Shown here: positions 20,441-23,304 of the stretch, piece by piece
How the letters are laid out: every line of letters starts with the position of its first letter
How positions within the stretch are numbered: the first letter of the stretch is position 1
NCBI GenBank assembly: GCA_019310245.1
Contig: JAFDER010000004.1
Span: forward strand, 1 to 40,696
Length of the DNA stretch: 40,696 nt
Direction: 5' to 3'
Source: Deltaproteobacteria bacterium
GTDB lineage: Bacteria > Myxococcota_A > Polyangia > DRWM01
Program-made: the position numbers and the translations under genes
The notes under the pieces: model-generated
The model's input: only the letters and a program-made list of their open reading frames with translations
Told to the model about the DNA's origin: nothing
Databases searched by the model: none

Positions 20441-21139
20441 TCAGTCGATGACCGTCCCCAGATCCTCGCCGCGCACGGCGCGTCCGATATTACCAGACTT
20501 GCCGGCATCGAACACGGTGATCGGGATGCGCCTCTGCATGCAGAGGGTGAAGGCCGTGGGATCCATGACGCCGAGCTTGCGCTCGAGGGCCTCCTCGTAG
20601 GAGACACGGTCGAAGCGCCTGGCATCCGGGTGCGTGACGGGATCCGCGTCGTACACGCCGTCCACCTTCGTGGCCTTGAGGATGGCGTCCGCCTCGATCT
20701 CGGCCGCGCGCAGCGCCGCGGCCGTGTCGGTGGAGAAGTAGGGGTTGCCCGTGCCGGCCGAGAGGATGACCACCCGGCCCTTCTCCAGGTGGCGGATGGC
20801 GCGCAGGCGGATGAACGGCTCGCCGATGGACTGCATGGGGATGGCGGTCATGAGCCGCGCGTCGACGCCCTCGGCCGTGAGCGCGTCGAGCAGGGCCAGG
20901 CCGTTGATCACGGTGGCCATCATGCCCATGTTGTCCGCGATGACGCGGGAGATGCCCTCGCCCTCGCCGGAGACCCCGCGGAAGAAGTTGCCGCCGCCGT
21001 TGACGATGGCCAGCTGCATCCCCTCCGATGTGGCCTGCTTCAGCTCGCGGGCCAGGGAGCGCAGGAACGCGACGTCGATGCCGATCCGCGCCTTGCCGCC
21101 CATGAGCTCTCCCGAGAGCTTGAGCAGGACGCGCTTCAC
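20441..21139 (-). CDS. pyrH: UMP kinase
   Basis: RVLLKLSGELMGG...GGGNFFRG...DNMGMMATVINGLAL...ILSAGTGNPYFSTDTAAALRAAEI. Confidence 0.97.
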   Translation of the reverse strand: MKRVLLKLSGELMGGKARIGIDVAFLRSLARELKQATSEGMQLAIVNGGGNFFRGVSGEGEGISRVIADNMGMMATVINGLALLDALTAEGVDARLMTAIPMQSIGEPFIRLRAIRHLEKGRVVILSAGTGNPYFSTDTAAALRAAEIEADAILKATKVDGVYDADPVTHPDARRFDRVSYEEALERKLGVMDPTAFTLCMQRRIPITVFDAGKSGNIGRAVRGEDLGTVID

Positions 21140-21738
21140 TCGTCCTTCTCTCCCAGCTCGTAGCGGACGAAGCGGCTGACGACGATGTTCTCACCCGTCT
21201 TGGAGATGAGCGAGCCGCGCAGGGCGTCGATGGTCTGCTTGTCGTCCTGCACGTACGGCTGGTTCAGGAGGCAGACATCGGAGTACCACTTCCGGATCTT
21301 GCCCTCGACGATCTTCTCGATGACCTTCTCGGGCTTGCCGGACGCCTTGGCCTGTTCGCCGAAGATCTCCTTCTGCTTCGCCAGCGCATCATCGGGGACG
21401 GACTCGGTGTCGACCCAGAGAGGGCTCATGGCCGCGATCTGCATGGCCACGTTCTCGGAAAAATCCGTGAAGTCCTCGGTGCGCGCCACGAAGTCCGTGT
21501 TGCAGTTGACCTCCACCATCACGCCGACCCGTCCGCCGGGGTGGATGTAGGCGTGCACGATTCCCTCGCGGGCCTCCTTGCCCTTGGCCTTGGCCTTGGC
21601 GAGTCCCTTCTTCTGCAGGTACTCGATGGCCTCGGACATGCCGCCGCCCGTCTCCTCGAGGGCCTTCTTGCAGGAGCTGATGCCCGCGCCGGAGCGCTGC
21701 CTGAGCTCCTTGATCTGATCCATGCTCACGTTGGACAT
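21136..21738 (-). CDS. tsf: Elongation factor Ts (short form)
   Basis: MDQIKELRQRSGAGISSCKKALEETGG...GVMVEVNCNTDFVAR; stop overlaps pyrH start. Confidence 0.96.
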   Translation of the reverse strand: MSNVSMDQIKELRQRSGAGISSCKKALEETGGGMSEAIEYLQKKGLAKAKAKGKEAREGIVHAYIHPGGRVGVMVEVNCNTDFVARTEDFTDFSENVAMQIAAMSPLWVDTESVPDDALAKQKEIFGEQAKASGKPEKVIEKIVEGKIRKWYSDVCLLNQPYVQDDKQTIDALRGSLISKTGENIVVSRFVRYELGEKDE

Positions 21739-21764
21739 TGCGTGTCTCCTTCGAAGAGAGGGGT

Positions 21765-22835
21765 CTAGCGCCTGCGGGGGCGCCGGCCGGCATACTCGAC
21801 CTTGGGACCGCCCGCCGCTCCACGCGCGGACGGAGAGACCAGGCCTTCGGTGTCCGAGATGCCGCGGCCGAGGACCTCGCGCCTCTTGTTGAGTCCCTCG
21901 ACGCACGCGTCGGCGATCTTCATGGTCACGAGATGGATCGCCTTGAGCGCGTCGTCGTTGCCCGGGATGAGGTAGTCGATGACGTCCGGATCGCAGTTCG
22001 TGTCGGTCAGGGCGATGATCGGGATCTCGAGCTTGCGCGCCTCGCGCACGGCGATCTGCTCCTTGTTCGGGTCGATCACGTAGATGGCGGTCGGAAGGTT
22101 GTTCATGCCCTTCGTGCCACCGAGGCTCTTCTCGAGCCGCTGGCGCTCCTTGTCGAGGCGCATGATCTCCTTCTTCTTGAGATCTCCGAACCCACCCTCC
22201 TCGGCGAACCTGGCGTCCAGGTCCTTGAGCCTATCGAGCGACCGGCTCACGGTCCTGAAGTTCGTGAGCATGCCGCCGAGCCAGCGGTTGGTGACGTAGA
22301 ACATCTGGGCCCGCTTGGCCTGCTCCACCACGATGGCCTGCGCCTGTCGCTTGGTGCCGACGAACATCACATGGCCGCCGCGGGTCACCGTCTGGACGAT
22401 GAACTGGTAGGAGCGGCGGAAGAGCCGGATCGTCTGCTGGAGATCGATGATGTGCACGCCGTTGCGCGCCCCGTAGATGTACGGCTTCATCTTCGGGTTC
22501 CAGCGCGGGGTCTGGTGACCGAAGTGCAGGCCCACCTCGATGAGGTTGCGCATGGAGATGGGCGTGCCCGGCTCGAGGCCGTACGACCTGCCCTCCTTCT
22601 CCTTCACCTCTTCGGCGGGCTTCTCGGCCTCCCCGGCCTCTGGGGCGGCCTCGGCCGGTTTCTCGGCCTCCCCGGCCTCGGGGACGGCCGCCGCCGGTGT
22701 CTCGGCCTTCCCGGCCTCGGGAACGGCCGCCGCCGGTGTCCCGGCTGGCGGTGCCTCCTCGGGCTTGTTCTCGGCCGGTTTTTCGGGGGTCTCCGCGGGC
22801 TTCGCGGTCTCGGGTGCAGATGTATCCTCTGGCAT
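21765..22835 (-). CDS. rpsB: 30S ribosomal protein S2 with N-terminal A/P/E repeat extension
   Basis: MRNLIEVGLHFGHQTPRWNPKMKPYIYGARNGVHIIDLQQT; ATG at 22835 preceded by SD AAAGGAG. Confidence 0.96.
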   Translation of the reverse strand: MPEDTSAPETAKPAETPEKPAENKPEEAPPAGTPAAAVPEAGKAETPAAAVPEAGEAEKPAEAAPEAGEAEKPAEEVKEKEGRSYGLEPGTPISMRNLIEVGLHFGHQTPRWNPKMKPYIYGARNGVHIIDLQQTIRLFRRSYQFIVQTVTRGGHVMFVGTKRQAQAIVVEQAKRAQMFYVTNRWLGGMLTNFRTVSRSLDRLKDLDARFAEEGGFGDLKKKEIMRLDKERQRLEKSLGGTKGMNNLPTAIYVIDPNKEQIAVREARKLEIPIIALTDTNCDPDVIDYLIPGNDDALKAIHLVTMKIADACVEGLNKRREVLGRGISDTEGLVSPSARGAAGGPKVEYAGRRPRRR

Positions 22836-22860
22836 GGCAAACTCCTTTCGGTTGTTCCTC

Positions 22861-22919
22861 CGTCCCATCCGCCGTGCCATCCTTCCGGACACCGGGCATC
22901 GGCGGAACGCCGCGGGACG
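22861..22919 (-). promoter_or_regulatory. Structured rpsB leader hairpin candidate
   Basis: CGTCCC..CCGCC..TGCC [16-nt loop] GGCA..GGCGG..GGGACG imperfect inverted repeat, 12 nt upstream of the rpsB SD. Confidence 0.6.
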
Positions 22920-22935
22920 TGTGTGATGGAGGAAA

Positions 22936-22964
22936 CATCTAGCAAAATGGGGTGGATGCGTCAA
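22936..22964 (-). promoter_or_regulatory. rpsB promoter candidate
   Basis: Minus strand TTGACG-N17-TAGATG with TGC preceding the -10 (extended -10). Confidence 0.55.
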
Positions 22965-23031: not shown

Positions 23032-23304
23032 ATGAGCGAGATCAAGGTCAAAAAGCCCTCTCAGGAGGAGCTCGACAGCATGGGAGTGGACGGCTGGAGC
23101 CCCTGGGAGTGCGAGCCGTCCACGTTCGACTGGGAGTACTCCACCAAGGAGACGGCGTACGTGCTCGAGGGACGGGTCCGCGTCAGGACGGACGCGGGCG
23201 AGGTGGAGTTCGGCCAGGGGGACCTGGTCACCTTCCCCAAGGGCATGAAGTGCAAGTGGAACGTGATCGAGAAGATCCGCAAGGTCTACAAGTTCGGCGA
23301 CTAG
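23032..23304 (+). CDS. Cupin domain protein
   Basis: SD ggagg; WECEPSTFDWEYSTKETAYVLEGRVRVRTDAGEVEFGQGDLVTFPKGMKCKWNV, typical small cupin. Confidence 0.9.
   Translation: MSEIKVKKPSQEELDSMGVDGWSPWECEPSTFDWEYSTKETAYVLEGRVRVRTDAGEVEFGQGDLVTFPKGMKCKWNVIEKIRKVYKFGD

Follow-up and report, generated by a model that had tools for sequence, protein, structure and literature searches.

The rpsB leader and its surroundings

The window, by which we mean the whole 40,696-nucleotide stretch of DNA analysed here, contains an operon with the gene order rpsB-tsf-pyrH-frr. The start codon of rpsB lies at 22835 (-) and is preceded by a leader of about 94 nt, in and around which the following features were located.

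21136 to 21906, minus strand: tsf (EF-Ts), second gene of the operon (Pfam PF00889); the open frame is given, and the real start codon lies inside it
21765 to 22835, minus strand: rpsB, ribosomal protein S2 (Pfam PF00318 at residues 98-314, E 6e-93)
22842 to 22848, minus strand: Shine-Dalgarno sequence of rpsB, AAAGGAG (from the sequence)
22843 to 22941, minus strand: the whole element (Rfam t44 match 22941-22851; match to covariance model R2 22928-22843)
22849 to 22852, minus strand: pseudoknot 3' arm ACCG, abutting the Shine-Dalgarno sequence on its 5' side (covariation; E. coli equivalent ACCCC)
22857 to 22861, minus strand: conserved GGAGG, 3' of P1, its first G closing P1 (t44 consensus and relatives)
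22861 to 22919, minus strand: P1 lower helix, CGTCCC 22919-22914 with GGGACG 22866-22861 (sequence and covariation)
22869 to 22905, minus strand: P1 upper helix, CCGCC/GGCGG (22905-22901 with 22873-22869) and TGCC/GGCA (22898-22895 with 22878-22875) (sequence and covariation)
22879 to 22890, minus strand: P3 apical hairpin, GUCC-GGAA-GGAU (minimum-free-energy fold and covariation)
22891 to 22894, minus strand: pseudoknot 5' arm CGGU in J2-3 (covaries with the 3' arm in 83 leaders from 21 families; E. coli GGGGU)
22918 to 22925, minus strand: CACACACG, unpaired and conserved at the 5' foot of P1, its final two bases opening P1 (near-invariant among relatives; also in E. coli and in the t44 consensus)
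22936 to 22964, minus strand: predicted promoter, TTGACG (22964-22959), a 17-nt spacer and TAGATG (22941-22936) with a TGC extended -10 (sequence)

The intergenic region is shared by rpsB and a divergent small cupin gene (23032-23304, plus strand; EutQ-like, Pfam Cupin_3 E 6e-24). In the S2 protein itself, the Ribosomal_S2 domain (residues 98-314) is preceded by an N-terminal extension, about 90 residues long, with a high content of Ala, Pro, Glu and Lys. The extension derives in part from a 39-bp tandem repeat at 22612-22745 (rpsB codons ~30-75; 3.4 copies, 89% matches), and most of the listed relatives also have extra S2 residues, between 8 and 47.

The sequence-only reading of this locus had described the promoter-like TTGACG-N17-TAGATG with its TGC extension, and a leader of about 94 nt holding 15 base pairs in three helices; the former is indeed present at 22964-22936 and the helices at 22919-22861 (-). 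The minimum-free-energy fold of the leader consists of these three helices together with a fourth, GUCC/GGAU, capped by a GGAA loop. Two further features went beyond that description, namely a pseudoknot, CGGU/ACCG, and unpaired sequence conserved as the motifs ACACACG and GGAGG..AAC.

The same reading had placed a transcription start near 22929. A simple promoter scan did not detect the window promoter at its threshold, whereas 60 of the 89 leaders of the class carry a TGNTA extended -10 on the 5' side of the motif (14.4 expected from shuffles). This enrichment supports the predicted promoter and the probable start near 22929, short of proof. A 2014 title by Aseev reportedly describes an extended -10 promoter for E. 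coli rpsB.

Conservation of the helices

The stability of the leader is not above chance for its composition (folding energy -47.9 kcal/mol against -45.6 +/- 3.7 for shuffles; z -0.62), and the hairpin by itself therefore proves nothing. What does rise above chance is its conservation. In alignment A2, which comprises 41 related leaders and was fitted to the helices, so that its helix counts are biased towards the structure, standard pairs occupy 86.8% of cells compared with 65.1% after shuffling. The helix covariation score is 0.443 against 0.154 for shuffles, none of 500 of which scored as high, and it fell to 0.07-0.11 when the partners were displaced by 1 to 3 columns. All 18 helix pairs in this fitted alignment show compensatory changes: 8/8 in the lower P1 helix (93% of cells paired), 6/6 in the upper P1 helix (77.5%) and all 4 in P3 (91%).

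An ordinary folding energy is what would be expected of a chance hairpin in GC-rich DNA, but such a hairpin would account neither for a structure conserved and covarying in relatives nor for a match to a known RNA family at E 1e-5 (see below), and we regard this explanation as exceedingly improbable. The earlier proposal of a structured, conserved leader is thus borne out, both by that match and by a helix covariation exceeding 500/500 shuffles and every slid control. Alignment of the relatives' rpsB upstream regions, the check suggested at the time, gave strong covariation in the helices (41 leaders) and covariation in the pseudoknot (83 leaders). The leader is a real feature and in all likelihood functional.

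The leader is a divergent member of the t44 family

At a permissive threshold the Rfam family t44 RNA (RF00127) matched the window at 22941-22851 (-) with 34.2 bits and E 1e-5, over the full model (1-95/95). The curated gathering cut-off of RF00127 is 44 bits, and Rfam itself would consequently not list the window leader; searching the window and 14 relatives at the gathering score returned zero matches, and wider t44 scans used stricter filters that drop weak matches, the window's own included. In a t44 scan of the whole genome (a 4.58-Mb assembly, 70% complete) the window leader was nonetheless the sole match at E <= 10, with E 2.8e-5. Sub-threshold t44 matches were also seen in the Thermotoga maritima, Caulobacter and Synechococcus controls in permissive scans.

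The relationship can also be traced in the opposite direction. A covariance model, R1, built from the window and six other leaders of the same class (seven in all), recovers the rpsB leader of E. coli K-12 at E 7e-7, and finds leaders before rpsB in many named deltaproteobacterial genomes, those of Desulfobulbaceae, Desulfobacterales and Syntrophaceae among them. Model R2 matches the window at 63.9 bits and E 2e-13, the window being itself part of its training set. Under stricter filters the class covariance model gives matches in only 21/96 genomes because the inner helices and inserts vary; an anchor-based count yields many more class leaders with the same frame than the class model detects. 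In the window, as in the relatives, the element sits in the rpsB 5' UTR and reaches the Shine-Dalgarno sequence.

From these comparisons of sequence and structure we conclude that the leader is a divergent, lineage-variant member of the known rpsB motif, or t44 family, homologous to the enterobacterial S2 leader. The sequence-only reading had suggested an analogous, possibly undescribed, S2 autoregulation element. Its regulatory side remains likely, the leader being conserved and related to the S2 leader of enterobacteria; 'analogous', however, is not supported, and the novelty does not survive the full-length t44 match that the proposed Rfam search produced at its permissive threshold, the retrieval of the leader of E. 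coli with a class-trained model, or the pseudoknot already described by Meyer et al. 2009 (PMC2704228).

Could the resemblance to t44 instead be convergent, with an S2 leader having arisen independently in this lineage? The score under the Rfam cut-off and the great differences in helix length and inner junctions among relatives would fit such an origin. Against it, the order of the parts, the unpaired motifs (CACACAC, GGUG, GGAGG..AAC) and the pseudoknot are all as in E. coli, and intermediates occur in named deltaproteobacterial genomes, Desulfobulbaceae among them; we consider convergence very unlikely. Less probable still, to the point of being nearly negligible, is that the element is a small RNA with a gene of its own 5' of rpsB, as would be suggested by the Rfam type 'Gene; sRNA' and by the annotation 'putative small RNA T44' in E. 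coli. Yet it continues into the rpsB Shine-Dalgarno sequence, with its last pairing arm directly 5' of that sequence; no terminator-like site was found on the minus strand between the element and rpsB, as a small RNA gene with its own terminator would have; and the class-model matches at genome scale are located at rpsB. RF00127 carries the type 'Gene; sRNA' despite its position in an mRNA leader.

A pseudoknot beside the Shine-Dalgarno sequence

When the leaders were set side by side, bases ending in GU before the apical hairpin were seen to complement bases starting with AC after the conserved 3' AA. The arms are CGGU/ACCG in the window and GGCGU/ACGCC, CGCGU/ACGCG, CCGU/ACGG or GGGU/ACCC in relatives, and the E. 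coli equivalent is GGGGU/ACCCC. This pairing was used neither in R1 nor in the anchor rule by which the leaders were aligned. As the positions of AAC and GU are ambiguous in repeats such as AACAAC, the anchor rule was refined, again without reference to pairing; the initial rule had already given 144 pairs, where shuffles reached 119 at most. In the 83 leaders of the class, 197 of the 249 variable positions are paired; 10,000 shuffles averaged 114 and never exceeded 142. Taking one leader from each of the 21 families leaves a mean of 48.9 of 63 pairs against 27.3 when shuffled, and no shuffle equalled the observed value.

The covariation signal comes from this wider class set rather than from A2, where the inner pseudoknot pairs vary solely by loss and the outermost pair forms in just 57% of cells. 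Under the initial anchor rule, 34 leaders from many phyla beyond the class, with crude anchors, gave 51 pairs against a shuffled mean of 44 and maximum of 54, which is no clear excess, and the evidence for the pseudoknot is therefore limited to the class and E. coli. RF00127 ends at the conserved AAC, leaving the pseudoknot 3' arm out of the model.

Two families depart from the common layout. In family f2, of the same order as the window genome, the rpsB leaders (L003, L005, L006, L010) are compact and give no class-model match; CCGU/ACGG complementarity is kept in three of the four, as judged by eye, and the element may be shrinking in this sister family. In family f9 (L082, L096, L100, L106, L123, L125-L127) an extra, often hairpin-like insert separates the GGAGG box from the pseudoknot 3' arm, and this arm is in contact with the Shine-Dalgarno sequence or overlaps it (AACCCGGAGG).

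A model for regulation of rpsB by its leader

The leader is most likely an S2 translational operator, and possibly an S2-S1 operator; that it belongs to t44 and also functions as an S2 operator we judge, jointly, to be highly probable. According to the model, transcription would start near 22929, and the RNA would fold into a long P1 stem with the apical P3 hairpin and a bulge, CGGU, pairing with ACCG just 5' of the Shine-Dalgarno sequence. The helices, the t44 homology and the location in the rpsB leader are observed. S2 in excess of 16S rRNA would then bind the folded leader, perhaps together with S1, and stabilise its pseudoknotted form, whose covariation in relatives and whose arm adjoining the Shine-Dalgarno sequence are likewise observed. 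The stabilised pseudoknot would sterically block entry of the 30S subunit at that site and so lower rpsB translation, and tsf expression would fall as well, through lost coupling to rpsB translation.

It is also possible to imagine a constitutive leader without any ligand, its stable 5' structure serving to protect the mRNA or position the ribosome. Stable 5' hairpins can stabilise an mRNA. The conserved unpaired bases and the covarying pseudoknot beside the Shine-Dalgarno sequence nevertheless exceed what a protective hairpin needs, and the E. coli homologue has been shown to be regulated by S2 (PMC10931766); we give a ligand-free role very little credence.

Within the S2 operator model, it is the occlusion step that is most tentative. 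Direct occlusion of the ribosome-binding site is plausible in the class because the median gap between the pseudoknot 3' arm and the Shine-Dalgarno core is 1 nt, and the median AAC-to-ATG distance is 18 nt. However, the ribosome-binding site of E. coli is said to lie outside the operator (PMC10931766), and occlusion is therefore not established even there. That the leader of this class, unlike that of E. coli, acts as a direct ribosome blocker through an S2-stabilised pseudoknot is thus a proposal we regard as reasonable but somewhat doubtful.

The new points are modest: the wide presence of the leader in the class, and a pseudoknot that abuts the Shine-Dalgarno sequence, as it does not in E. 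coli. They extend a known ribosomal protein leader to a class that is poorly sampled and probably belongs to the Myxococcota, in which the Rfam cut-off misses the S2 leader, and provide many covarying examples of the pseudoknot, which lacks its 3' arm in the present t44 model. An Rfam family rebuilt with this arm and with members from the class would annotate rpsB leaders more widely.

Comparison with known systems

In E. coli, S2 represses rpsB-tsf via the rpsB leader, and a small deletion in the conserved bulge of that leader may abolish regulation (PMC10931766, a 2024 review). The K-12 gene tff, annotated as 'putative small RNA T44', lies immediately 5' of rpsB. The window leader resembles t44/tff (RF00127) in its full-length alignment, its helices, its CACACAC and GGAGG..AAC motifs, its location before rpsB-tsf and its pseudoknot arms, and differs in its score of 34.2 bits (< 44), its GC-rich helices and a P3 closed by GGAA. 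The spacing at the 3' end also differs, the class having its pseudoknot arm against the Shine-Dalgarno sequence and 18 nt between AAC and ATG where E. coli has 30.

As described by Meyer et al. 2009, the rpsB motif comprises P1, variable P2 and P3, with J2-3 and a 3' extension paired in a pseudoknot, and its reported range takes in a few Deltaproteobacteria (PMC2704228). The window shares with it P1 with P3, the J2-3/3'-extension pseudoknot and the position before rpsB; it is without P2, as are most Gammaproteobacteria, and its pseudoknot has 4 bp where that of the motif has 5. More distantly, autogenous control by a 5'-UTR structure is a likeness to the rpsF S6:S18 leader (PMC4647458) and other broad-range ribosomal protein leaders, although the S6:S18 leader is unrelated in sequence, structure and gene.
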